This document shows positions 3,001 through 30,151 of a stretch of 35,348 nt of DNA, one piece after another. The notes below the pieces were generated by a model. It ran no database searches and was not told the DNA's origin. It saw only the letters and a list, made by a program, of their open reading frames with translations. This stretch comes from an uncultured Bacteroidales bacterium (GTDB taxonomy: Bacteria > Bacteroidota > Bacteroidia > Bacteroidales > UBA3824): NCBI GenBank assembly GCA_946409405.1, contig CAMJWL010000014.1, forward strand, positions 1-35,348. Direction: 5' to 3'. Both the position numbers and the translations under genes were made by a program. Each line of letters starts with the position of its first letter. Position 1 is the stretch's first letter.

Positions 3001-6000
3001 TGCCGCAACTTCGCCGAACTCACTGTCAACAACTCCATGCTCAGTGTTGACGCCGACACCCAGGTAGAAGGCAAGGCCGCCAGCGCCTGTGGCGACGAGT
3101 ACGTGCTCCACGGCCAGACCATCTCCGGCACGGTGGGCAAGTGGACCGTCAAGAACGGCGACGCGGAGAATATCACCTTCTCGCCCGACGACACCGACGC
3201 CAACGCCACAGTGAAGGGCGTTACCAGCGACGGCATCACCCTCACGTGGACAGTAAGCCGCGCCAACGGCAGCTGCCCGGTTAGCGACGAGATCACCATC
3301 TACAACGACAAGGTTGACGCCACGGTACTCGTACCCGCCAGCACCTGCGACGGCACTGTTACCCTCGAGGCCACCAACGACAATGTGAACGGCGACGACG
3401 GCAAGTACACTGGCTTCTGGTCCACCACCAGCACAGTGGGCAAGTTTACCGACACCGAGGAACGCTCCGTACAGAAGGCTGTTACAGAATACTCTGGCAT
3501 GGGCAAGGGTGCTAAGGTTGCGTTCACATGGACTATCAGGAAGAACGGCTTGTCAAACAACCAGACTGGCAAGACCTACTGCGAAGACACCAAGACCGTG
3601 GAAGTAACCAACTACGACTTCGAGTTCTCCGCTGGCGTGGACAACCAGAAGACCAACTGCAAGGACTTCATCAAACTCGACGCTTCCTTGCCGTCCACCG
3701 ATGCCAACGCTACCGGCGAATGGTCTGGCAACCAGGGCAGCATCGTATTCGACGATTCTACCGATCCCAAGACTACGGTTCGCGGTCTCAGCAATTCTGA
3801 CTCCAACATCCTTACTTGGAAGGTTAAGTCCAACGGTTGCGAACACGATAAGAGCATCACTGTAATCAACAATACTGTTGACGACGCTGTTATCCTCACC
3901 CAGGCTCACGACGAGTGCAACGACTACGTAGAACTCACTGCTACGCCGGCATCCGTAGGCGTAGGATACTGGGAACTCGAAGACGGCTGCGATTATAAGA
4001 CTGGCTACGCTTCCACCGATGCTACCGTGGTAGTAAATGGTCTCGCTCCCAATGCTAAGGCCACATTCACTTGGAAGGTTGTAAGCACCGACAATATCTG
4101 CGAGAAGTCTGCTTCTGTGGATATCAACAACCTCTTCTACGAGGCCAAGGTATTCTCTAAGAATCAGTACATTTGCGAAGACAATATCGGTATCGTGGCC
4201 AACGAAATCAAGAACGACAAGCTTCTCGCTTACTGGACTAAGAGCAACGACGACGCTCAGTTCGCTAACGGCGAGGCAAGCATCGCTACTAATACTACTA
4301 CTGTAACGGCTCTGCCCTACGGTACTACCACCTTCACATGGCATGTAGAAACTAAGCAAGAAGGTCTCTGCCCGTCTAAGAAGGCTAACGTACAGATTAC
4401 CAACTACTCGGTAGTGGGCAATGTAACCGAAACTTCCGTATCTACCTGCACGACTTCTGCTAACCTTACCGCCGACGCTACCCCGACCGGCTGCACAGGC
4501 GAGTGGAAACTCGAAAGTCCTGAGTCGGAGATAGACAATATCTCCTACGGCGCAGGTGCCGACAACAACGTTACCTCTGTAACTGGTCTCAAGTCGGGCA
4601 ATTACAGGTTCTCTTGGACGGTTAAGTCGCCGGTTAACACCGAGACTGGCAAGCCTTACTGCACATCCGAACCCAAGTACGTAACGGTATTCGACAACAC
4701 CTTCACGGTGGATGCCGATATTGAGACCGAGGGCGACACCCGCGATGTCTGCGGCGACAAACTCACCCTCAAGGTTTCTACTCCGCAGCCTGTAATCGCT
4801 GGCGAAGACAAGGCAGAACTCACCTGCGACGACGAAAATGTTAAGATTACTCCCGTTGCGGGCAGCAACAACAAGTTTGTCGTAGAAGGCATCAAGGTTT
4901 CGGCTACTCTTACATGGCACGAGCACCGCAACGGTTGCGACGCTTACGACAACATTACCCTCAACAATATCCAGCCCTCTGCATCCGCGCAGACCGAATA
5001 CTACACCTGCAATGGCACTGTGAAACTCAATGCCACCAAGGCTGCATCCGGCACTACGGGTCATTGGGACAAGGTGGCCACTACATACGTAGGCGAATTT
5101 GTGGGCGACAACCAGAAACCCACCGACAACGCAGCGTCCTACCAGTTCCCGGCAGGCAACGTGAACACCACCGTCAAACTCAAGTGGATTGTAGTGAGCG
5201 ACGCTACTCCGTCTTGCTCCGACGAGGTTGAGGTTTCTGTTACCAATAATAAGTTCAATCCCGTAATCAACGGCGACAATGTAGTATGCGCCGACAACGT
5301 ATCGCTCACCGGCTCTATGCCGAGCGAGGGCTACACTGGCAAGTGGTCTTCAAGCATCAGTGGTGTTACATTTGACCCTGAAGATGCACCCTCTACCACG
5401 GCTAATGGCCTGATACCTGGCGACAACTACATCACCTGGACCGTATGGAACACTGAAGGCGACAAGTGCGAAAGCACCTCCGAATCCTTCACGGTAGTAA
5501 GCACATTGCCTGGCAAGGCTAAGATTCTTACCACCGCTACCGAGACCTGCGACGGCAATATCACCCTCACTGCAGAAGCACCGATTTCTGTGGATGGCGT
5601 GGTTGGCACTTGGACTACCTCTGGCAACTCCAAGACCGCCGATGGCAAGCAGTCGGCTACCACCACCACTGTTACATTCAAGGGTCTCGACGCTTCCGAA
5701 ACCTTCACTTGGACGGTTTCTAACGGTACTTGCTCCGATTCTAAGACCATCACCATCTACAATAACAAGGTGGATGCTGGTCAGATACCCGAACTCGACA
5801 TCTACACTTGCGATGGCAACATCACTCTCGAAGCCGAAGACAACACCAAGACCTACACTGGTTCTAATGGCTGGTGGACTTCGCAGAACGGCACCAAGTT
5901 CAAGGGCAGCGACGACACCTCTGAGAAGGCGTTCAAGGTAGAGGCTCTCAATGTTCCTCAGACCGGCGACTTCTTCACATGGCACGTACAGCGCGGCACT

Positions 6001-9000
6001 TGTCCCGAGGCTACAAGGCGCATCACTGTTCACAACTACGGTGTAACACCCGAACTCGGCGACAACAAGTCTGTAATCTGCGAGGACGATGTTGAAATCA
6101 AGGCTGTAAGCCTCGCTTCCTACGGCAATGGCGTAGAGGGCGAATGGACTTTGGCTGACTTCCCGTCGTCAAGGATGAAGAGGGAAGACATCACCATCAA
6201 CAGTGCCTCCAACAACATCGCATACGTAGAAGGCGTATCTCAGGAAGGCATCTACAAGTTCTGGTGGAATGTTAAGAGGATTGTGGATCTCGACGGCGAC
6301 AACGACGCTACCGACGAGGTTTGCCAAGACCACGTAGAACTCGTGATTACCAACGGCAAGTTCTCTGTTGACGCAGACGTAAGGCTTGGCCTCGACGAAA
6401 ATGGCGACAAGGTAGCCGGCACCACTTGCGACGGCTCTTACAGCCTCCTCGGTTCCAACATCGATGGTGCTACCGGCACTTGGAGCGAAGTTACCAACTC
6501 CGGCGTATCCTTCGGCGATGGCAATGCTGACGTTAATAAGTACAATGCTACTGTAAGCGGCATCACATCTGCAGGCGTTACCCTCAGGTGGACCGTAGAG
6601 AAGGAAGGCGGTTGCAAGTATTACGACGACATCACCGTATTCAACGACGCTGTGATTGCTGACGCTTCGTTTGCCGAGCCGGTTTGCAACGGCACGGTAG
6701 TACTCACCGCCGCCAACGACGTAGAGCATATCGCCAACCTCGAAGGCATGTGGACTATCGGCGAATCTACCACCGGCCACTTTGTTGACGCCGACGGCAA
6801 CGAAATCACCGACGTTACCTCTCAGGTAGCCACCTTCACAGGCATACCCGAAGGCGGCACGGCAGAACTCACCTGGACCGTCAAGAACAAACGTACAGAC
6901 GGCTCTTACTGCGAGGATAGCAAGAAGGTTACTGTGATTAACCGTCAGATGAACTTCACCGCCGGTGCCAACGACGTTACCGCTTGCTCCGACGAGTACG
7001 AGATGAAGGCTTCCTTGCCCAAGAATGCTACCGGTACTTGGACGTGCAACAACGACAATGTAGAGTACTTTACATCCGATGCCGATAAGTATCCCGACGG
7101 CAAGAACGATCCTCACGCTACCGTCAAGGGTCTCAACAACGCTACTACCAACGTATTCACCTGGACCGTTGCGGCCAACGGTTGCGAGCAGTCCAAGATG
7201 GTAGAGATTGTTAACAACTCTGTTGACGTAGCCGAGATTACTACTACGGAACATCAGGAGTGCCAGACCGATTTTGTACTCAATGCCACCAAGCCTGCAC
7301 AGGGCAACGGCGTATGGAGCACATCTACCAACGGCATCACCTTCACTTCCAACTTGACTGGCGAAGGCGAATCTACACTCGCCGAATCTGCCAACAACGT
7401 TACTGTACACGGCATGAGCCCCAATACCAAGGCTATCTTCGTATGGACTGTAAGCCGCGACAATGGCAACGGCATGATTTGCAAGAGCACGGCTGATGTT
7501 ACCATCGAGAATACTCATTACGATGCCAACATCCTCACCCTCACCGACAACAACGGTGAAGGCACTGTGAAGACAGTCTGCGCAGACGAGGTTGAGTTGC
7601 TCGCCGAGGATTCCAAGTCTAAGTACAACGTTCAGGGCTACTGGACCACCGACAGGGAGGTTGAGGGTCTCGCCTTCAAACTCAATGACGCTAAGGTAAA
7701 CAACACCGATGTTTCCATCAGTGTATCCAAACTCCAGAGCGGTGCCACCACCTTCACTTGGAATGTTGACAACGGACAGTGCGGTCTCCAGACGGCTTCC
7801 ATCGTAGTTGCCAACGACAAGGTAACAGCCGAAGCAGGCGATCCCGTTACCGCGTGCGGCAGCGAGTCTGAACTCAACGCCACCGTTCCTTCCGTAGGCT
7901 CTGGCTCTTGGGAGTGCATCGCTGGCACCAACAAGGAGGCTGTTTCCTTCGACAATACCGAGACCAACAACTACCACACTGGCATCAAGGGTCTCACCGG
8001 CGGCAACTACACATTCCGTTGGACTGTTAAGTCGGCTGGCAACATTGTCTGCGACGCTTACGACGACGTGATTGTATCGATGAACAACTTCACCGTGGAT
8101 GCCGACCGCACCGTAGAAGGCGATTCGCGCAACATCTGTGGCGAAGAGACTACAATCCTCGCATCCGTACCGATGGGCGAGGGCTGGTGGACTGTTTCAG
8201 ACGAAACCTTGAAGGGCAAGATTGAGTACCTCAACGACGCTTCCAACGAAATCAAGGTGAGCGGCATCACTTCTTCGGCTGTATTCACATGGCACGAGAA
8301 GCGCAACGGCTGCCCGGCTGAGAACTCCATCACGCTCTACAACCGCAAGCCGCAGGCTGTCGCTGTCAACAAGTATTACACCTGCACCGGCAACGACATC
8401 CAACTCTCCGCTACACCCGCAGCATCCGGCACCAGCGGACACTGGGAGAAGGAGCGCGACTACGTAGGACACTTCATCAACAAGGAGAGTGAGAACGCTC
8501 AGTACACCGGCATGGATCCGAATACAACCATCACCTTGTACTGGATTGTTACCGACGACCTGATGACTACATGCTCAAGCAAGAAGTACCCGGTAACTGT
8601 TACCAACTTCAAGTACGAACCCTCTATCTTCGTAAACGACGAGGTAGTATGTGCCGACAACGTAGAACTCCGTGGCAGTCTTCCTGCCGAAGGCTTCACC
8701 GGCAAGTGGTCGCCCGCTAACAACGACGCTATCACCTTCTCCGACGAGGCTTCCGCTACCACGACGGCTCAGAACCTCGCCCTCGGCGACAACAAGATTG
8801 TATGGACCGTTACCAACGTAAGCGATGCTCAGGGCATCCCGACTTGCGACAACACGGCTGAGATTACCATTACAAACAATCTGCCTGGCGAGGCGAAGAT
8901 TCTCACCACCAAGAAGTTCACTTGTGATAACACCATCACACTCAAGGCCGAGGCCATCGGCAGCGACGTTGAGTACGAGTGGAGCACCGTTGGTGGCGCA

Positions 9001-21484: not shown

Positions 21485-21566
21485 CGCAAAATTCTGATAA
21501 AATAAAATCTTTATTCTTTTTGTGAAATTTTATGGATTTGTTACTCTATATTTGTAAATAAATTTA

Positions 21567-21601: not shown

Positions 21602-22243
21602 ATGGACAAGGCATTAGAAGAGTTGAGGCTGTTGATTGAATCGTGTAATCGGTCTGGCCATATCAGCAAGTCTGATATGGACATGCTCACTGTGCGCGCA
21701 CGTATCATGGGGCTTGCACCGGAAGAACTCGACGAACTTATCAAGACTTCGGGGCAGAAGCCCGTGGAAGGCATGATGAGCGCGGATGAGAAGATGTTTG
21801 CCCCTAAGATGGTACATATTATAGTCGCCATTGTGATTGTAGTGGTGGCGGCGGTGCTTGTGTTTGTGGGCATAGATTTCAACGGTTCGGGCAATTCAAA
21901 AAACAATTCCTACCTCGGTCTTGGCGACAAGCCCGTGGAGGAGGCGGATCTTTACCATTTGTATTCGGGCATTTACGACGGCAAGTCGCTGCTGCTTACG
22001 GTGAAGGACGTCAAGAACGAGAACGGGCGGTATATCATGACCTTCGATCTCAAATGCGACTTCGTGCCGGTAGCCCAAAACTGCAAGTGCTACGTCGATT
22101 TGGCAAAAAACACATTTGAGTTTGAGCAATCGGATGTGGTGGCAAAAAAGTTTTCGCTTGGGGCGGGTACAATAAGCCGCATGGCAACGGGGAAGGTGAT
22201 TTTTAAGCCGTCCTCACAGTTGTACGAACTTACGCAACTTTGA
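21602..22243 (+). CDS. Single-pass membrane protein with N-terminal helical module
   Basis: This encodes 213 residues and I do not recognise a named family. Residues 1-52 form a short helical module (LEELRLLIESCNRSGHISKSD...ARIMGLAPEELDELI in outline) that also occurs in the downstream kinase. Residues ~71-91 are a clear transmembrane helix (VHIIVAIVIVVVAAVLVFV). Residues ~95-213 are predicted extracytoplasmic, with alternating beta-like hydrophobics and two cysteines in NCKCYV. The ATG at 21602 is preferred over an upstream TTG in the same frame because that TTG is inside the -7 region. It is the first gene of the cluster, with 87 bases to the next start. By topology it could carry an envelope signal to the kinase; that is inference. 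Confidence 0.8.
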   Translation: MDKALEELRLLIESCNRSGHISKSDMDMLTVRARIMGLAPEELDELIKTSGQKPVEGMMSADEKMFAPKMVHIIVAIVIVVVAAVLVFVGIDFNGSGNSKNNSYLGLGDKPVEEADLYHLYSGIYDGKSLLLTVKDVKNENGRYIMTFDLKCDFVPVAQNCKCYVDLAKNTFEFEQSDVVAKKFSLGAGTISRMATGKVIFKPSSQLYELTQL

Positions 22244-22330
22244 AAATTGTAATTTGAAAAGTTGCAAACATAGAAAATAGGTAATTATAAATTATGCATT
22301 GATATGGAATGTGCATCAAATAAGTCAGTT

Positions 22331-23257
22331 ATGAGATATATTTTGTTTTCGGCGATGGTGCTGATGATAGCGGCGGGTATGATGACGTCTTGTTCGTCAG
22401 ACAACGCCTCGTGCAAGCAGTGCGACAGCCTTCGCTCGGTGTTGGATCTTTATCGCAAACAGGACAGCATGTCGTCGGCGATGCTGTATGGTCTCAATGC
22501 CAAACTCGATTCGTATGGCAACGTGGAAGACTCTATCAAGAGTTACAGAAGGTCACTCGACTCCCTTACCACCGTAATCAAGAGCAAGGGACGCGCTACC
22601 GGCGCACAAAACAAGGAGTTGCAGGATTACATGGACAGGATTAGGCAACTAATCTCGCAGAACCAGGAGATGGCTGAGAGCCTCAAAGGGTCGGGCTACC
22701 AGAGCGCGTCTATGGACAGGCTCATCCAACTCGTATTCGACAACGCCGAGATGCGCCAACAGGAACTCAACGCCAAGCAGCGCGAAATCGCCGACCTCAA
22801 GACCAAGGTGAAGGGCCTCGAAACCAAGATTGTGGACCTCTCCAACGAAAACACAAACCTCTCCACGGAGGTCAAGGACTTGAACTACCAGATGGCGCAG
22901 ATTACCGGTTCTGTGAAGGTAATCCAGCCTAAGGAGCGCAAGGCCAAGCGCATCGAAAAACTCGACATCGTTTACACCCTCAATGGAAACGAAAAGGCTT
23001 TCATGGGCGAGGTTACGGTGTATTTCAGGATTATCGACCCCAACGGCAAGGTATTGGAGCCGTCGGGCGATTTTACGTATGAGGGAGTTAGCATCGCTTA
23101 TACTATGAAGGATCGTGTGCAGTACGACCGTTCGGACATGCGTCGTCAGATAACTTGGAAAAAGACTGCCACAACGCTCAGCCCCGGCACTTACACGGTG
23201 GATTTCTTCATCGACAGCCACAAGGGCACGAGCGACTCCTTCACCCTCGACAAATAA
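22331..23257 (+). CDS. Coiled-coil lipoprotein with C-terminal beta domain
   Basis: This encodes 308 residues. A short signal peptide ends in a lipobox-like MTSC with the lipidated Cys at residue 21. Residues ~30-130 are helical and polar, ~135-195 have strong heptad-like coiled-coil character (REIADLKTKVKGLETKIVDL), and 205-308 look like a beta-sandwich with FMGEVTVYFRIIDPNGK and SPGTYTVDFFIDS. An in-frame ATG at 22304 would add nine residues before the signal peptide; the later start gives a normal lipoprotein N-terminus. It is followed after 15 bases by the kinase gene. I infer a periplasmic or outer-membrane partner of the kinase. The function itself is unknown. Confidence 0.82.
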   Translation: MRYILFSAMVLMIAAGMMTSCSSDNASCKQCDSLRSVLDLYRKQDSMSSAMLYGLNAKLDSYGNVEDSIKSYRRSLDSLTTVIKSKGRATGAQNKELQDYMDRIRQLISQNQEMAESLKGSGYQSASMDRLIQLVFDNAEMRQQELNAKQREIADLKTKVKGLETKIVDLSNENTNLSTEVKDLNYQMAQITGSVKVIQPKERKAKRIEKLDIVYTLNGNEKAFMGEVTVYFRIIDPNGKVLEPSGDFTYEGVSIAYTMKDRVQYDRSDMRRQITWKKTATTLSPGTYTVDFFIDSHKGTSDSFTLDK

Positions 23258-23272
23258 TAATCAGCCGACCAA

Positions 23273-25021
23273 ATGACAGATTTTGAACAACTAAAACAAC
23301 AGATAGAACAGTACGTGCGCACGGGCATGACCGAATCCAAACGCCAGCAACTAATCTCGCAGGCGGGCAGAATCGGCATCAATCCGGGGCAACTCGTGAT
23401 GCTCATCAAGAACGCCGAACTCGAATTGAAGTTTGCCACGGGCGTATCCAACACGGAGTACCCCACAGACTTTGGCTCGGGATTCTTGATGGAGACCGAG
23501 GAGCCTGCCGCCGCGTCGGGGTTCGTAACAGAAACTGTACACGCCTCCGCGTCGCCCGGCTCGGGATTCATTACCGAGAGTGCCGCGCCGACAGCCGACA
23601 GCGAAGGCACTCAGGCCATTATAGCCGACAACGCACCTGCGCCCACCTCTGCGCCAGACGCGAGCGAGTTTACCGAAATCAAGAAACTCGACGTTTCGGG
23701 GGCGATGAGCGACGTATATAGCGCGCTGCATCTTGGTCGCCGCAAGGTAATCATCAAGCGCGTGAAGCCGCAGTTCCGTTACAACAAACAGTACATAGAC
23801 CTGTTTTACAAGGAGTTTGACACTGGATACAGCCTCGAAAATCCGGGCATAGTGCATTTTTATGGCAAGGGCGAGGACGCCGACGGCCCGTATTATTACA
23901 TGGAATATGTGGACGGCAGGACGCTTACCACCTTTATCCACGTGGAGCATAATACCAAGGAGGACATCATCAACAAGATTGTGCTCCAACTCCTCGACGC
24001 CCTCAAATATATGCACCAAAAACAGGTGTTTCACCGCGACCTGAAGCCCGACAACATTATGCTCACTTACAAGGGCAACAATGTGAAAATCATAGACTTC
24101 GGTCTTGCCGCCGCCGATTCGCTCGTGGACAATCTCGCCAAGGCTGGCACTCCCAAATACGCCGCTCCCGAACTTATGAACCGCGCCATGTCTGCCGACC
24201 AGCGCAGCGACATCTTTTCGCTCGGCGTTATCATCATAGAACTTTTTACGCAGCATGCCGACCGCCATTATCTGCACGAAATACCGTCGGAAAAATACCG
24301 CGCCGTAGCCGACAAATGCACCATGCTCAATCCCACCGACCGCTATCAGTCGTGCGACGAGATTTTGCGCGTGTTGCTTGCCAACGGCAGCGGCTCCAAC
24401 CCCATGCCCCAGTGGCTCGAAGCCAAAATCAAGGAGTATGCGGCGGACGGCGTTATCACCCGCAACGAACGCGCAGTGCTTGATAAGGAAATCATCAAGG
24501 CGGGGGTTGACAAGGATCTTGCCGAGGCTATTATTTCCGACGAAATAGAGAAGGCCATCGCCCGCAAGCGCAAGGAGGAACTCGAACGCAGAAACCGTCT
24601 CGCACAGGCATCCACCAAATTGGAGGACGAAGGCGGCGGACGCAAATTCTTGAAGACATTGCTGTTGCTGATAGTGCTTGCGGCGGTAAGCACGGCGGTA
24701 TATATGCACTTCAACGACGGACGATTGCCATGGGAGCGTCAGAGTACCACCTCCACCAATAACACGCAGGATGTATTTGCGCGGGGTGCCATTATCTACA
24801 CGTCGGGCAACGGGGTCCACCTACGTCAAGCCGCCTCGTTAAGCAAGGAAAACGTCATCGCCTCGCTCCCCAAGAACACGCGGCTCGAAGTGATTGTGCG
24901 CGACCAATACGACGTATATGCGGAGTGGGTGCATGTGAAGGTTTTGGACGGTCAGTATAAGGACAAATCCGGATTCATCCACAAGCAATATCTGACCACC
25001 GTTCCACCTGTTAAAAAATAA
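23273..25021 (+). CDS. Transmembrane Ser/Thr protein kinase with SH3-like tail
   Basis: This encodes 582 residues. Domains in order: a helical module (3-50), a linker rich in Ala/Ser/Thr/Glu with three SGFxxE repeats (68-103) and a DSEGT motif (109-113), a Hanks-type kinase domain (~135-370), a second helical module (~381-427), a charged helix, a TM helix (459-478) and an SH3-like domain (~503-575). Catalytic features are complete: Lys162, HRDLKPDN (254-261), DFG (275-277), APE (298-300) and DIFSLG (313-318). The glycine loop is reduced (SGAMSDV). The kinase domain should face the cytoplasm and the SH3-like domain the periplasm. It sits 5 bases upstream of a PP2C phosphatase gene, the usual writer-eraser pair. 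Substrates are unknown. Confidence 0.92.
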   Translation: MTDFEQLKQQIEQYVRTGMTESKRQQLISQAGRIGINPGQLVMLIKNAELELKFATGVSNTEYPTDFGSGFLMETEEPAAASGFVTETVHASASPGSGFITESAAPTADSEGTQAIIADNAPAPTSAPDASEFTEIKKLDVSGAMSDVYSALHLGRRKVIIKRVKPQFRYNKQYIDLFYKEFDTGYSLENPGIVHFYGKGEDADGPYYYMEYVDGRTLTTFIHVEHNTKEDIINKIVLQLLDALKYMHQKQVFHRDLKPDNIMLTYKGNNVKIIDFGLAAADSLVDNLAKAGTPKYAAPELMNRAMSADQRSDIFSLGVIIIELFTQHADRHYLHEIPSEKYRAVADKCTMLNPTDRYQSCDEILRVLLANGSGSNPMPQWLEAKIKEYAADGVITRNERAVLDKEIIKAGVDKDLAEAIISDEIEKAIARKRKEELERRNRLAQASTKLEDEGGGRKFLKTLLLLIVLAAVSTAVYMHFNDGRLPWERQSTTSTNNTQDVFARGAIIYTSGNGVHLRQAASLSKENVIASLPKNTRLEVIVRDQYDVYAEWVHVKVLDGQYKDKSGFIHKQYLTTVPPVKK

Positions 25022-25026
25022 GCATC

Positions 25027-25818
25027 ATGTTATCAACGATAAAAAAAATATTCGCCGACAATTCTAACGGCGGCAGCGGCAAGGCTCTTCCGCAGACCGA
25101 GAGTAGCACCCTGCAAGGCCGCAAGCCGAGCCAGGAAGACGACTTCCTTATCACCGACGTAAGGCACGGGATGAGGCTTGTATTTGTGGCAGACGGCGTG
25201 GGCGGACACGGACACGGCGACTTTGCGAGCAAGACCGTTGTGGATTATTTCAGCGAGGCTTTCAACAAATTGACTGTTGACACCGACCCCGTTGCCTTCC
25301 TCAACGAAACAGTAATGCAAGCCGCCCGCAAGGTGCTGGACAAGAGCATCGAAGACCCCGCGTACATGAATTGCGGCACCACGATTTCGGGTTTTCTGGT
25401 GTGTGGCAGCGATTATTACACCATCAACATAGGCGACAGCCGCGTGTATCTGTGGAGCGAGGACGCCCTCAGCCGCGAGACCCACGACCAATCTATCGTG
25501 CAGCAATTGCTCGACCGTGGCGAGATTACGGAGGATGAGGCGTTTCACCATCCGCAGCGCAACATCATGACTTCCGCCATCGGTCAGTCGCTCGACTTGA
25601 TGCAGGTGGACGTGAGCAAGAAGCGCACTTTCAAGCACGGCGACATCATGTTTGCTTTTTCGGACGGGGTGCATGACGCTCTTACCGACAATCAGATATA
25701 CAGCCTGATTTCTCGTTACAAGGAGACCCCCGACCTCGCCAACAGGCTCACCGAGGCTGCCTACAACGCCGGCGGCAAAGACAATATCACCGCCATCGTT
25801 TACAGATATTTTGACTAA
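25027..25818 (+). CDS. PP2C-family Ser/Thr protein phosphatase
   Basis: This encodes 263 residues, a single PPM/PP2C catalytic domain, predicted cytoplasmic. The metal-binding and structural motifs are all present: GRKPSQEDD (31-39), ADGVGGH (55-61), the GTT motif at ~117-119, IGDSRVY (135-141), FSDGVHD (211-217) and GGKDNIT (249-255). The product should be a metal-dependent phosphatase that reverses phosphorylation by the upstream kinase. The start codon is 5 bases after the kinase stop, so the two are almost certainly cotranscribed. About 25 residues precede the domain. No TM segment is seen. Confidence 0.95.
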   Translation: MLSTIKKIFADNSNGGSGKALPQTESSTLQGRKPSQEDDFLITDVRHGMRLVFVADGVGGHGHGDFASKTVVDYFSEAFNKLTVDTDPVAFLNETVMQAARKVLDKSIEDPAYMNCGTTISGFLVCGSDYYTINIGDSRVYLWSEDALSRETHDQSIVQQLLDRGEITEDEAFHHPQRNIMTSAIGQSLDLMQVDVSKKRTFKHGDIMFAFSDGVHDALTDNQIYSLISRYKETPDLANRLTEAAYNAGGKDNITAIVYRYFD

Positions 25819-25832
25819 AAACCGTATAGAAA

Positions 25833-27293
25833 ATGGACAATATACTTGCACTTTTTGTCTGCGACAATTACATGCTTGCCGCCATCCTCAATGGCGACGG
25901 CACTTGCAAGCCACTGCCGAGCGACAGGGACGGCGGGCGTTATTACTTGTATTTCAAGCAAAACGGCGCGGGCGGCTACGACTACGGACTCCAATACCTG
26001 ATGCCTTACCGCAACGGCGAGGCGGGTGCGGAGGGCGATGTGTTGCAGCGCATTGCCGACGGTCGGCGCGACCTCGACATCGCTCTCTATGCCGTTACCT
26101 CTGCCATTGTAGCCAAAACTACTGGCGTGTCGCGTTGCGTAGCCACTTTTAGCGACAGCATCGACGAGGCGGCGCGTGCGGCGGTAGGGGAGAACCTGAT
26201 GCGCAGCGGTTTGCAAATTTCTACCCGCGAACCATTGCCGGCGGTGGTTGCAAGGCATTTTGCAAGGAGTCGCGGTATGCTCTGCAACAACCGCAAGATG
26301 GCTGTGGTGGAGACCCTCGGCAACGACCTCAATATGTACATCGTTAACGTCAACGGCAGCACCTGCGACGTCATCGCCAAGCGCAACGCCGAAGGTCTTG
26401 GCGTGGCTCCGCTTGCAAGGGCGATAGCGCAGAAGATTGTTAACACCGTCAACCTTAACGCCCACATTATCGCCCCCACAGACGGCAAGGCTCTTGCTGC
26501 GGAGATTTTGCGGCATTATAGCCTGTCGGAAAAAGTGATTGCCTATTTTGACAAAAATCCCACCAAGGACACCATAAAACTCAGCACCAATTTTGCTTGC
26601 GCTCCCAATCAGAAGTATCCTGTTGGGCTTTCGCGTGAGGAGTTGTATGCCGATGCCGCCAATTTTTCGAGGCAGTATGCTGCGATGTTTTCCAACGATT
26701 TGCTTGCCGCCAGCGGTTGCCGCGTTATCGATTTGGAGAATATTATCCTCGTTGGCGACACGTTGGAAAATCCGTCGGTTCTCAAAGGTTTTCAGGAACT
26801 TGGCGGCACCAAGATAATTACCTTCCACGGAGATTTTACGGTGTTTATGGACGGCATGGTGGCAACGGTTTCCGCGTCGTCTCCTGCCGCCACACCTAAT
26901 TCTGCCGCCCAAAATAATTCAGTGCCTGCTGAGGACAGCGAAGGCACTATGTTCCAGATGGCTAACAATGCGCCCGCAAATCCGCCTCAGCCTCAATATG
27001 TGGAGGTGTCGCAAGTGAATGTCAACACCCTGAAACAAGGCACGATGGTATATCTGGACACTTTTGACGCGACACCGGGCAAAGGTGCTGCATTTCAGGA
27101 ACTTGAATATCAAGGCAGCGGCATTTTCTTAGTGATTGGAAGTTCGCGGTCGTTGGCTCCCGGCGACATTGCAAAGCCTTTCTCTATGGCTTGGAATTGC
27201 GGTGTGCAACTCGATTTTATGATTACCCGTGACGGACGTTCCATCGGCAAATTCCGCACTCGCATGGTCAAACGCATCCGCATCAAGGCTTAA
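25833..27293 (+). CDS. Actin/Hsp70-like (ASKHA-fold) protein with C-terminal beta domain
   Basis: This encodes 486 residues with no confident family name. Residues ~1-345 show a pattern reminiscent of Hsp70/actin-fold ATPases: a first beta-hairpin (LALFVCDNYMLAAIL), a second strand-turn-strand (VVETLGNDLNMYIVNVNG, from 158) followed by GLGVAPLARAI, and an adenosine-motif-like ENIILVGDTLENP (302-314). The glycine-rich phosphate motifs of active ATPases are not conserved, so it may be non-catalytic. A low-complexity linker (~345-388) contains DSEGT at 368-372, as in the kinase. The last ~100 residues look like a beta domain ending in basic residues. It lies 14 bases after the phosphatase gene and 1 base before recJ. 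A role as kinase substrate or scaffold is inference. Confidence 0.6.
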   Translation: MDNILALFVCDNYMLAAILNGDGTCKPLPSDRDGGRYYLYFKQNGAGGYDYGLQYLMPYRNGEAGAEGDVLQRIADGRRDLDIALYAVTSAIVAKTTGVSRCVATFSDSIDEAARAAVGENLMRSGLQISTREPLPAVVARHFARSRGMLCNNRKMAVVETLGNDLNMYIVNVNGSTCDVIAKRNAEGLGVAPLARAIAQKIVNTVNLNAHIIAPTDGKALAAEILRHYSLSEKVIAYFDKNPTKDTIKLSTNFACAPNQKYPVGLSREELYADAANFSRQYAAMFSNDLLAASGCRVIDLENIILVGDTLENPSVLKGFQELGGTKIITFHGDFTVFMDGMVATVSASSPAATPNSAAQNNSVPAEDSEGTMFQMANNAPANPPQPQYVEVSQVNVNTLKQGTMVYLDTFDATPGKGAAFQELEYQGSGIFLVIGSSRSLAPGDIAKPFSMAWNCGVQLDFMITRDGRSIGKFRTRMVKRIRIKA

Positions 27294-27294
27294 A

Positions 27295-29034
27295 ATGGAG
27301 AATATTTGGAAACTTCGGCCTTCTAAATACGACGATGCCGCGCTCAACGATTTTTGCAACCGGCTCCACGGACACCTGCCGCCCACGCTTGCATTGATGA
27401 TGCTCGATAGGGTGGGGGACGACGTGGAGGCGGTGCGTGGTTTTCTGCGCCCGTCGCTGTCGATGCTCCACGACCCGTTTTTGTACAAGGACATGGACAA
27501 GGCGGTGGACAGGATTTTGGCGGCGATAGACGGCGACGAGTCGATAATGGTGTATGGCGATTACGACGTGGACGGCACTACGTCCGTGGCGTTGGTGTAC
27601 TCTTTTTTGAAGAAGGAGTTTTTTTATGACGTGGATACAGACCGTCTTTGCTATTATATACCCGACAGATATTCAGAGGGTTATGGAGTTTCTTTCAAAG
27701 GTGTTGACACCGCCGTGGAACGCGGCTGCACCCTTATCATCGCACTCGATTGCGGCATCAAAGACAATCCGCGCATAGATTACGCCAAGACCAAGGGCAT
27801 AGATTTTGTGGTTTGCGACCATCATACGCCCGGCGAGGATTTGCCCAAGGCGTTTGCAGTGTTGGACGCAAAACGCCACGACAACACTTATCCTTACAAC
27901 GAATTGTCGGGCTGCGGCGTGGGGTTTAAACTCTTGCAGGCTCTCTGCATCCGCCGCAATATCGCCATCGAAAATCTTTACGAATATCTTGACCTCGTGG
28001 CAGTTAGCATTATCTCCGACATTGTGCCTATTACTGGCGAAAACAGGGTGTTGGCGTATTTTGGTCTGCAAAAAATCAATGTCAACCCGATGACCTGCAT
28101 CGCCGCCATCAAGACCGATGCTGGACTTGCCGAAAAAAATATTACCGTGGATGAGGCTCTCTTTGCCATTGGTCCCCGCATCAACGCCGCTGGGCGCATG
28201 AGAAGCGGCATGGATGCTGTCAAATTATTGATTAGCAACGATTTCTATGAGGCGGTGGATTTTGCAAAGGAGATTTCGCATTACAACGACGACCGCAAGG
28301 AGGCCGACCGCTCTATCACCGAGTGCGCGCTTGCTATGTTGCAATCAGACCCCGAAAATTCTAAAAAAACTTCCACCGTTGTCTGCGGCAACGAGTGGCA
28401 CAAGGGCGTTGTGGGCATAGTTGCCTCGCGCCTTACCGAAACTTATTACCGTCCCACCATCGTCCTCTCGCGCAACGGCGACATGTTGACGGGTTCGGCG
28501 CGTTCGGTTTCGGATTTTAATCTTTACGATGCCATCGATTCGTGCCGCCAATATCTTACGGCTTTTGGCGGACACAAATTTGCTGCCGGTCTGAGCATGA
28601 AGGCGGAGGTCTATGACGATTTTCGCCGCGACTTTGAGGATTATGTTTCGTCCCACATCCAAGACTACCAAAAACGCCCCACTATCACCATCGAGCGTTA
28701 TATTAGTTTTGCCGAAATTACCGACGATTTTTACCGCAAACTTCAAGAGTTTCAGCCTTTTGGCCCCGAAAATCCCGAACCTATTTTTGCCACTCGCGGC
28801 GTTGTAAATTACGGCAAGACCCGCGCCGTCGGCAAGGAGTTGCCCCAAAAACATCTCCGCCTCGAAGTGATGGACGCTTCCAAAACCAAGATGGTTGGCA
28901 TCGGCTTCGGTCTCGCCGCATTTGCGGATGCGTTAAAAGCGGGCAAGGCAGTGGATATTTGCTATACCGTGGTGCAGAACGAGTTTAACGGGCGGAAGAG
29001 TTTGCAGTTGATGGTGAAGGATATAAAGGCGTAG
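27295..29034 (+). CDS. recJ: Single-stranded-DNA-specific 5'-3' exonuclease RecJ
   Basis: This encodes 579 residues, the normal length for RecJ. The DHH phosphoesterase motifs are complete: VYGDYDVDGTTS (87-98), ALDCGIKDN (150-158) and VVCDHHTPGED (173-183), followed by SGCGVGFKLL and GPRINAAGRM, a DHHA1 region (GNEWHKGVVGIVASRL and GGHKFAAG) and a C-terminal OB-like domain. By family knowledge it degrades single-stranded DNA in recombination and mismatch repair using Mn2+ or Mg2+. I chose the ATG one base after the stop of the preceding gene; an upstream in-frame start would overlap that gene by 65 bases and add unrelated residues. Its position suggests translation coupled to the signalling cluster. 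Confidence 0.96.
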   Translation: MENIWKLRPSKYDDAALNDFCNRLHGHLPPTLALMMLDRVGDDVEAVRGFLRPSLSMLHDPFLYKDMDKAVDRILAAIDGDESIMVYGDYDVDGTTSVALVYSFLKKEFFYDVDTDRLCYYIPDRYSEGYGVSFKGVDTAVERGCTLIIALDCGIKDNPRIDYAKTKGIDFVVCDHHTPGEDLPKAFAVLDAKRHDNTYPYNELSGCGVGFKLLQALCIRRNIAIENLYEYLDLVAVSIISDIVPITGENRVLAYFGLQKINVNPMTCIAAIKTDAGLAEKNITVDEALFAIGPRINAAGRMRSGMDAVKLLISNDFYEAVDFAKEISHYNDDRKEADRSITECALAMLQSDPENSKKTSTVVCGNEWHKGVVGIVASRLTETYYRPTIVLSRNGDMLTGSARSVSDFNLYDAIDSCRQYLTAFGGHKFAAGLSMKAEVYDDFRRDFEDYVSSHIQDYQKRPTITIERYISFAEITDDFYRKLQEFQPFGPENPEPIFATRGVVNYGKTRAVGKELPQKHLRLEVMDASKTKMVGIGFGLAAFADALKAGKAVDICYTVVQNEFNGRKSLQLMVKDIKA

Positions 29035-29069: not shown

Positions 29070-29101
29070 TTTGCATTTAGCAATCTTTTTCATTACTTTT
29101 G
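29070..29101 (+). promoter_or_regulatory. Bacteroidota-type promoter before the AAA ATPase gene
   Basis: TTTG at 29070-29073 and TACTTTTG at 29094-29101 are separated by 20 bases, a full match to the -33/-7 consensus. Transcription should begin near 29107, which makes the ATG at 29126 the natural start and argues against the ATG at 29105. Confidence 0.8.
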
Positions 29102-29125
29102 CGGATGGAAACATTAACAAACAAT

Positions 29126-30151
29126 ATGAACACCTCATTCACACTACATAATTTTGGACCGATAAAGGCTGCCGACGTAGAGTTTGGCGATATGACTTTT
29201 ATCGTGGGCCCACAGGCGAGCGGCAAAAGCATCTTTTTGCAGGCTTGGAAACTGCGTGAGGATTATCTTAGCATCAAAAACAACCTCAATAATTATTCTT
29301 ACAACACCGACGGCGACAATATCCTGAAACATTATTTCGGCATCAACAATTTGAAGATGCAACAGATTGATGGCGCATCACAATCGAATCAAACCGAAAA
29401 AATATTCTACATTCCGGCGCAGCGTGTGCTTTGCATCGCCGACGGCAGGCCAAAACGTTTTATGGAATTTGACTATGAAACGCCATACGTCGTACGCCAG
29501 TTTAGTGAATATTTGCGGCAGAATTTTGCACCCGATGCCCAAAAAATGGCATCCGCAATCAACAGTCCTTTAAGTATTTACCATAATGGAAAAATAGAAA
29601 TAGATTCGAGTATGGGGCCGCAAAAAATGCGCCTTCGCGTCGGCGAGACATCGTTGCCGTTTGTTGCGTGGAGTGCGGGTCAAAAAGAATATATGCCGCT
29701 TAGTATGGCAAATTATTTCATCTCAAAAGACCAATCATCCCAATTCCAATACATCGTCATCGAAGAACCCGAAATGGGGTTGCATCCGAGGGCAATAATT
29801 GGATTTATCGACGAGGTGGCGCAACTGATGGCGAAAGGGTTCAAAATCGTTATCTCCACACATTCGTCAGTGTTTCTTGAATTTGCGTGGGCAATAAAGA
29901 CGATGCAAGATTCCACGGAAGAAAATTTCAAACACGTAATCTCCGAGGCGGGCATTGCTGACAGTCAAGCCATTGACATTCTTTATAAATTGCGCAAAAA
30001 CATCAAGACCTACTTTTTCAACGATGGAATCAGCAAGGACATTTCCACGCTTGACGCTTGGAGCGACGACCCCGACGTGGCTCTGATGGGCGAACTTACA
30101 AGTTTTAATGCACGGATTTGCGACGCTATTGCAAAATACAAAAACGACTGA
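29126..30151 (+). CDS. AAA family ATPase of the ABC/SMC-like (OLD/RecF-like) type
   Basis: This encodes 341 residues and is predicted cytoplasmic. The N-terminus (FTLHNFGPIKAADVEF) is typical of RecF/OLD-like AAA proteins. Motifs seen are Walker A VGPQASGKS (27-35), a short ABC signature WSAGQKEYMP (182-191), Walker B YIVIEEPEMGLHP (209-221) and the switch His in ISTHSS (243-248). There is no long coiled coil and no TOPRIM nuclease domain. Such stand-alone ATPases often work with a second gene, as in some phage-defence or toxin systems; here the following gene appears broken. An upstream ATG at 29105 is in frame, but it lies at or before the expected transcription start. The exact function is unknown. 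Confidence 0.85.
   Translation: MNTSFTLHNFGPIKAADVEFGDMTFIVGPQASGKSIFLQAWKLREDYLSIKNNLNNYSYNTDGDNILKHYFGINNLKMQQIDGASQSNQTEKIFYIPAQRVLCIADGRPKRFMEFDYETPYVVRQFSEYLRQNFAPDAQKMASAINSPLSIYHNGKIEIDSSMGPQKMRLRVGETSLPFVAWSAGQKEYMPLSMANYFISKDQSSQFQYIVIEEPEMGLHPRAIIGFIDEVAQLMAKGFKIVISTHSSVFLEFAWAIKTMQDSTEENFKHVISEAGIADSQAIDILYKLRKNIKTYFFNDGISKDISTLDAWSDDPDVALMGELTSFNARICDAIAKYKND

Follow-up and report, generated by a model that had tools for sequence, protein, structure and literature searches.

In bacteria, a Ser/Thr kinase module is as a rule read by FHA or vWA partners. The gene cluster considered here encodes a membrane Ser/Thr kinase, a PP2C phosphatase, an Hsp70-like protein and a lipoprotein, and it lies in the window, that is, the whole stretch of 35,348 nucleotides that was analysed, which is contig 14 of an uncultured Bacteroidales assembly (3.56 Mb, 300 contigs, 88% complete). 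Throughout, G1 to G7 denote genes of the window, three-digit labels from G000 (the window genome) to G687 denote genomes, and the prefixes L, C and f denote loci, contigs and families, respectively. The vWA-FHA/PP2C/Ser-Thr kinase triads of the Bacteroidales share with this cluster a kinase, a PP2C and envelope-spanning parts, and a triad locus of family f11 (L121, L123), with the array vWA-FHA/PP2C/kinase/FHA-RDD/kinase, also contains a lipoprotein resembling G2 and the helical domain seen in the window cluster; unlike the triads, the window cluster is without FHA and vWA and has the Hsp70-like protein (G5) and, in its relatives, a DUF2339 protein. The window genome has a vWA-FHA and PP2C locus of its own on G000:C163, which breaks off with the contig at the point where G002 and G009 have the kinase; the window module is therefore an additional kinase/phosphatase system of this cell, one that is free of FHA. 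Further kinase/PP2C/FHA loci, carrying genes that by eye look caspase-like and zinc-ribbon-like, occur at L169 (G008:C7) and L170 (G006:C99); G008 is without the window module.

The second close comparison is with the Stk/PknB PASTA kinases and their Stp/PrpC partners, in which, as here, a Ser/Thr kinase with one transmembrane segment adjoins a PP2C. The window module differs from these pairs in that a Pfam search found no PASTA match in its kinase, in that both enzymes score below the NCBIfam cut-offs, and in its extra xSGF linker, second helical domain, SH3 tail and G5. In GarA and OdhI an acidic Thr motif in a disordered extension controls a folded domain (PMC5448819); by analogy only, G5 may be set beside them for the Thr motif in its own disordered linker, although GarA has an FHA domain and G5 an Hsp70-like nucleotide-binding domain (NBD) joined to a beta domain. 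The DUF2339 protein Arc3A of Pseudomonas aeruginosa guards against a phospholipase toxin and the build-up of lysophospholipid, and the extra gene of the relatives belongs to the same Pfam family; the passages of the Arc3A paper that were consulted (PMC8926400) describe no link to a kinase. Kaur et al. (2020, PMC7159879) report kinase, PP2C and HSP70 genes from the neighbourhoods of GTPase conflict systems in actinobacteria as well, but there each forms a theme of its own around the GTPases, accompanied by vWA, and the window cluster contains none of these GTPases. The preliminary description, which had been made from the sequence alone, knew of no named system with this set of genes, and we found none described in a full-text literature search, beyond the reach of which lay most subscription papers. 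The cluster is apparently an undescribed variant of bacterial Ser/Thr phosphosignalling with the xSGF kinase and G5 at its centre. Its genes are as follows.

21602..22243, + strand: G1, protein with one transmembrane segment, an N-terminal helical domain and a short extracytoplasmic beta-type region; optional member
22331..23257, + strand: G2, coiled-coil lipoprotein whose C-terminal domain is conserved (lipobox ..MTSC and alignment)
23273..25021, + strand: G3, membrane Ser/Thr kinase (profile matches, conserved residues)
25027..25818, + strand: G4, PP2C phosphatase, metal-site residues retained
25833..27293, + strand: G5, Hsp70-like protein (predicted structure, alignments)
27295..29034, + strand: recJ (TIGR00644), neighbour, possibly co-transcribed, outside the core

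The six genes run in one direction with gaps of 87, 15, 5, 14 and 1 bases, just as first described. Pfam and NCBIfam profile searches identify the kinase, the PP2C and RecJ among them; G1 and G5 have no match in either database below E 0.001, and the matches of G2 are of coiled-coil type only and under the cut-off. The Pfam search of the cluster gave no FHA or vWA match in any of G1 to G6, and the earlier statement that the cluster holds no FHA, vWA or zinc-ribbon component is borne out.

Gene order in the genus and co-occurrence across the order

With G5 as query, 15 of the 18 genomes of the genus gave a match (G004, G008 and G011 did not), and in all 15 loci G3, G4 and G5 are contiguous on one strand, so that the proposal of an envelope-linked kinase/phosphatase/Hsp70-like module stands as a conserved arrangement. 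G2 adjoins G3 in 13 of these loci, the contig ending within G3 in the other two, and the cluster orthologue of G2 (E <= 1.9e-49) is present in 16 of the 18 genomes. In G004 the genes G2, G3 and G4 are present up to the contig end; G008 (97% complete) is jointly without G5, the G2 orthologue and the kinase, as is G011, but the latter is only 64% complete. For G2 to G5 and recJ the ratio of nonsynonymous to synonymous substitution rates (window vs G010 or G007) is 0.10-0.17. Named sources are given for 12 of the related loci: these are metagenome-assembled Bacteroidales genomes from ruminants (yak, goat, sheep, red deer and others) and horse faeces.

Around this arrangement the remaining members vary. 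Seven loci have G1 immediately ahead of G2, whereas L044-L047 and L127 lack it there. A DUF2339 gene, the mark of an Arc3 locus, is found in 13 of the 15 genus loci, adjoining G5 in 11 and lying elsewhere in the locus in 2 (L040, L041); it is absent from the window locus and L035, and was not found in the window genome. As for recJ, it is downstream in 10 loci, upstream in 2, on the opposite strand in 1 and not seen in 2 (L036; L037, where the contig ends), and this variable position led us to reject it as a core part, contrary to the preliminary description, which had ended the cluster in recJ. We likewise rejected DUF2339 and recJ as an ancestral pair: recJ lies within 1.5 kb in 0 of the 29 Bacteroidales DUF2339 loci outside the genus, and, unlike the loci of the window's relatives, none of these 29 adjoins recJ or the kinase module. 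The conserved core is thus G2, G3, G4 and G5, and the usual extra member in relatives is a DUF2339 (Arc3A-type) membrane protein. Of the five non-recJ genes that had been proposed as one set, four hold together, G1 is optional, and the usual further member is one that the window genome seems to be missing. The test put forward with that proposal, a search for homologues lying together in other genomes, failed to refute it: they were found together in the genus. The original interpretation is, on the whole, partly supported: its main idea holds, but recJ drops out, and the key co-occurring pair is that of the xSGF kinase with G5, which the sequence of the window alone could not reveal.

For the order as a whole we used 393 Bacteroidales genomes (325 complete, 206 genera), taken to be the same set for the G5, kinase and G4 searches; the first 3 candidates per genome were scored for G5, the first 4 for the kinase and the first 6 for PP2C, so that a kinase-rich genome could hide one, and the E cut-offs of 1e-60 and 1e-55 (the latter for G4-type PP2C) were of our own choosing. 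G5 is present in 20 of the 393 genomes and the xSGF kinase (E <= 1e-100, N-terminal domain present, one or more xSGF motifs) in 19, all of which are among the 20 (Fisher p 1.9e-31, relatedness ignored); in G009 the kinase match begins at model position 65, yet the protein has the N-terminal domain. Weaker kinase matches (8.7e-76 to 4.0e-61), beginning at model positions 92-127, came from seven G5-negative genomes; in two of these (L243, L245) one SGF string precedes the kinase domain. The kinase alignment used, A9, was built partly from genomes chosen for having G5 and may be biased towards them, although the search with it also took in the 373 G5-negative genomes. Of the 18 genomes with a G4-type PP2C, 15 belong to the 20 that have G5 and 3 to the 373 that do not, these three being of family f45 (Fisher 2.5e-20, relatedness again ignored). 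A gene of 483-487 amino acids beside the f45 PP2C was considered as a hidden G5 and rejected as unrelated (best hmmsearch E 0.034; hhalign probability 1.3). Beyond the genus, G4 is next to G5 in three families (L258, L259, L264), and in one of them so is a kinase (L096); in the remaining families the genes for G5, kinase and PP2C either lie on separate contigs or are so distant that the loci obtained do not show them together. Several kinases can accompany one G5, as in G052, which has four kinases and one G5. Among 395 genomes sampled over the whole phylum, G5 matches were confined to G000 and G687.

Domains and motifs of the encoded proteins

The kinase G3 consists of an N-terminal helical domain (residues 1-51), a linker (68-102) with three xSGF motifs, the kinase domain (about 142-365), a second helical domain (about 380-430), a transmembrane segment (458-481) and an SH3-like tail (514-574). 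By sequence and model, the N-terminal domain and the xSGF linker are placed in the cytoplasm and the tail across the membrane from them. Its catalytic residues (K162, E181, HRD 254-256, DFG 275-277, APE 298-300) are kept in alignments A5 and A9 (12 and 17 kinases), and by these residues the predicted protein is a Hanks-type Ser/Thr kinase; the glycine-rich loop of the aligned kinases is degenerate. The closest kinases of other families share the N-terminal helical domain, the xSGF linker, the kinase domain and the transmembrane segment, followed by an outer part that varies from SH3 (L214, by Pfam) to TPR (L251, L252, L219) and WG repeats (L219, L221, L250), several of these matches falling under the curated cut-off. 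Each of the 17 aligned kinases carries 2-6 xSGF or SGL motifs, two of them in invariant columns, and in all 12 linkers from the genus the number of xSGF motifs is beyond chance (2-6 observed vs 0.01-0.07 per shuffle, with 0 of 2000 shuffles of each reaching the observed count). Among the fetched loci an xSGF array in a non-kinase protein was met only in L110, and was discarded as a G2/G3 read-through open reading frame at a contig end. A second kinase of the G3 type is encoded elsewhere in the window genome (G000:C231, L033, 3175-4683; E 2.5e-96), with its N-terminal part cut off by the contig end.

The helical domain recurs within and between these proteins. A related domain lies C-terminal to the kinase domain (E about 1e-6 to 1e-4), and the N-terminal domain of G1 is homologous to that of the kinase (E 3.1e-8). 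Only two hhalign comparisons exceeded the 12 controls, all of which were at or below 1.1: the N-terminal domain of G3 against that of G1 (probability 56) and the middle domain of G3 against the helical part of the FHA-RDD protein (81). The kinase middle domain against the G1 domain (0.3) and the G3 N-terminal domain against the FHA-RDD helical part (0.4) were unsupported.

Residues 1-348 of G5 have the Hsp70 NBD fold in the predicted structure, as judged by structure comparison, and an hhalign comparison with four DnaK proteins gave a weak profile similarity (probability 82.5, E 9.8e-6, residues 96-327). What sets G5 apart from Hsp70/DnaK is the erosion, as aligned, of its ATP motifs: ETLGNDLN stands opposite the phosphate-2 motif DLGGGTFD, and by eye the DLGTTNS loop of Hsp70 is without a counterpart in the N-terminus. 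A Pfam search (cut-off 20.6 bits) gave no PF00012 (HSP70) match to G5, the PF00012 matches of G000 being on other contigs. The linker that follows (346-386) is disordered in the model (per-residue confidence, pLDDT, under 50) and contains DSEGTMF at about 366-372. The corresponding motif, [DENY][SAG]TxF, is found in 15 of 15 G5 proteins of the genus and 3 of 16 others (18 of 31 in total), and when the linkers of the genus proteins are shuffled it arises by chance with a probability of 0.6-1.7% for each protein; the G5 of L089 has a looser form, and that of L092 has SSGF in its place. The C-terminal beta domain (386-486) is the best conserved part of the protein (alignment A8, 26 rows), with K417, S437, R439, D412, T476 and R477 kept in at least 92% of rows, and it is modelled at pLDDT 97. 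It has no confident PDB match, the Hsp70 substrate-binding domain (SBD) included, and families missing from the match list are not thereby excluded. The one match of alignment A1 to PDB sequences (E 0.1) was judged to be chance. The L032 locus (G000:C69, 8071-12258) holds a different pair, in which a kinase-AAA fusion of 556 amino acids adjoins an HSP70-domain protein of 834 amino acids.

G2 is by its sequence a lipoprotein, with hydrophobic residues 1-22 and a lipobox Cys that is nearly invariant in the alignment. A more distant G2 paralogue is present in all 33 genomes searched; at L124 (G000:C35, 6087-9388) a paralogue with an N-terminal transmembrane segment adjoins an MMPL-type exporter of 776 amino acids, and genes of 777 and 775 amino acids adjoin the paralogue in L129 and L130. 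In L035 (G007, 5030-6039) G2 is represented by its C-terminal half only, with unrelated sequence upstream to the contig end. G4 is a PP2C (PF13672, 47.9 bits vs a cut-off of 24) whose metal-site residues D38, D56-G57, D213-G214 and D252-N253 are invariant in 18 aligned rows.

A proposed envelope phosphosignalling module and its alternatives

The reading that we think most likely, and rather better than even in its chances, is that the cluster is an envelope phosphosignalling module in which G5 is an adaptor controlled by the kinase and phosphatase. The SH3 tail of G3, together with the lipoprotein G2 and with G1, would sense the state of the envelope, and kinase and phosphatase would set the level of phosphorylation of G5, for which the best candidate site in the genus is the linker Thr of DEESTMF (DSEGTMF in the window). 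G5 would then act as an adaptor, with no working chaperone function, whose two domains are re-arranged by phosphorylation in a manner comparable to the switching of GarA by its ETTS extension, and the xSGF array may be the docking platform for G5 or for a shared partner. For most relatives, the DUF2339/Arc3A-type protein, and with it the protection of membrane lipids, would be part of the output; this protein was not found in the window genome, whose output must therefore lie elsewhere. FHA domains present elsewhere in that genome, two of them conserved in the genus, could read the products of the module in trans. A broader and more tentative proposal, which we regard as possible though more doubtful than not, is that one degenerate Hsp70-like hub (G5 with its new C-terminal beta domain) serves one to several kinases that have differing outer sensors (SH3, TPR, WG), a common N-terminal helical domain and an xSGF array read by G5 or a shared partner, and drives Arc3A-type lipid protection in most relatives. 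The architecture, if true, would be one of phosphosignalling with an Hsp70-like reader in place of FHA; if the link is functional, gut Bacteroidales would have a new class of phospho-adaptor and a docking code that can be put to the test, and envelope sensing might be connected in this way with membrane protection of the Arc3A type.

Several observations weigh against the adaptor reading. By the strict pattern the Thr motif is missing from most G5 proteins of other families, and it therefore cannot be a universal switch; the loss of ATP binding by G5 rests on sequence, and the proposed DUF2339 output is missing from the window genome at its 88% completeness. G093 has G5 with kinases (2.7e-93 and weaker) that are without xSGF; no G4-type PP2C was found at E 1e-55 in three f11 genomes that have G5, nor in G082 and G100; and G687, from outside the order, has a G5-like NBD without the C-terminal domain and without a kinase match. 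In this last protein (L097, another family of the phylum) three LSDE[EN]LF repeats replace the C-terminal domain. The co-occurrence figures, moreover, are uncorrected for common descent. The positive genomes are all in one order except G687, and in several families all sampled genomes match, so that the genes could simply have been inherited together in one Bacteroidales branch, with an old gene order and shared ancestry accounting for their company and no joint function needed. We consider this unlikely, in that G5, kinase and PP2C still co-occur in most other families where they are on separate contigs, are jointly absent from G008, and have linear motifs in common, including the SSGF of the L092 linker.

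It is similarly improbable that the locus is a sensor of the cell wall in the manner of the PASTA kinases, with an SH3 tail that reads peptidoglycan, ordinary wall or division targets, and G5 as a minor accessory. A bacterial SH3-like tail on a one-TM kinase beside a PP2C does recall the Stk/Stp pairs, but the scores against the respective models (160.9 bits for G3 with NF033483, 197.2 bits for G4 with the Stp1/IreP model NF033484) fail the curated cut-offs of 450 and 230, there is no PASTA domain, and the kinases of other families carry TPR or WG repeats for SH3 and yet G5 is retained. That G5 is an active, phosphorylation-regulated chaperone of the Hsp70 type is very unlikely, given the failure of the Pfam model to match, the replacement of DLGGGTFD, the lack by eye of a DLGTTNS counterpart, and a C-terminal domain without a confident match to the SBD (although absence from a match list proves nothing). 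We give least credence of all to an anti-phage defence locus with the kinase as effector: the PADLOC models mad6, PD-T4-6 and Stk2 match the kinase, and the downstream gene G7 matches PDC-M56A, but the former matches span the kinase domain only, G4 has none and G5 one at E 0.024, the locus is present in 16 of the 18 genus genomes, unlike a mobile defence island, and G7 is preceded by a promoter-like site of its own.

Neighbouring genes and transcription signals

Two further features flank the six genes.

21520..21554, + strand: promoter-like match (Bacteroidota-type, TTG-N-TAnnTTTG) ahead of G1; pattern scan, weak
29099-30151, + strand: G7, AAA_15 ATPase after recJ; match to PADLOC candidate PDC-M56A, E 1.9e-98

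The pattern TTG-N-TAnnTTTG, which we take to be a Bacteroidota-type promoter consensus, has 4 matches on the + strand of the 35 kb and 2 on the - strand. Besides the one ahead of G1, the + strand matches are at 28760 (inside recJ), 29071 (before G7) and 30461, and the scan, which is weak evidence, gave none from G1 to mid-recJ. Sites resembling sigma-70 promoters number 22 vs 11.7 in shuffles and terminator-like sites 14 vs 12.3, which is uninformative, as is the finding of no + strand terminator-like site in the gaps among the six genes. The recJ product passes the RecJ equivalog test (TIGR00644, 506.2 bits vs a cut-off of 396.9), and a relative of G7 lies near the module locus in L034. Upstream of the cluster an open reading frame of 6918 amino acids (34-20790, + strand) is made up of repeated Cys-containing units, and its end presumably resembles a C-terminal domain of the type IX secretion (T9SS)/gliding type.

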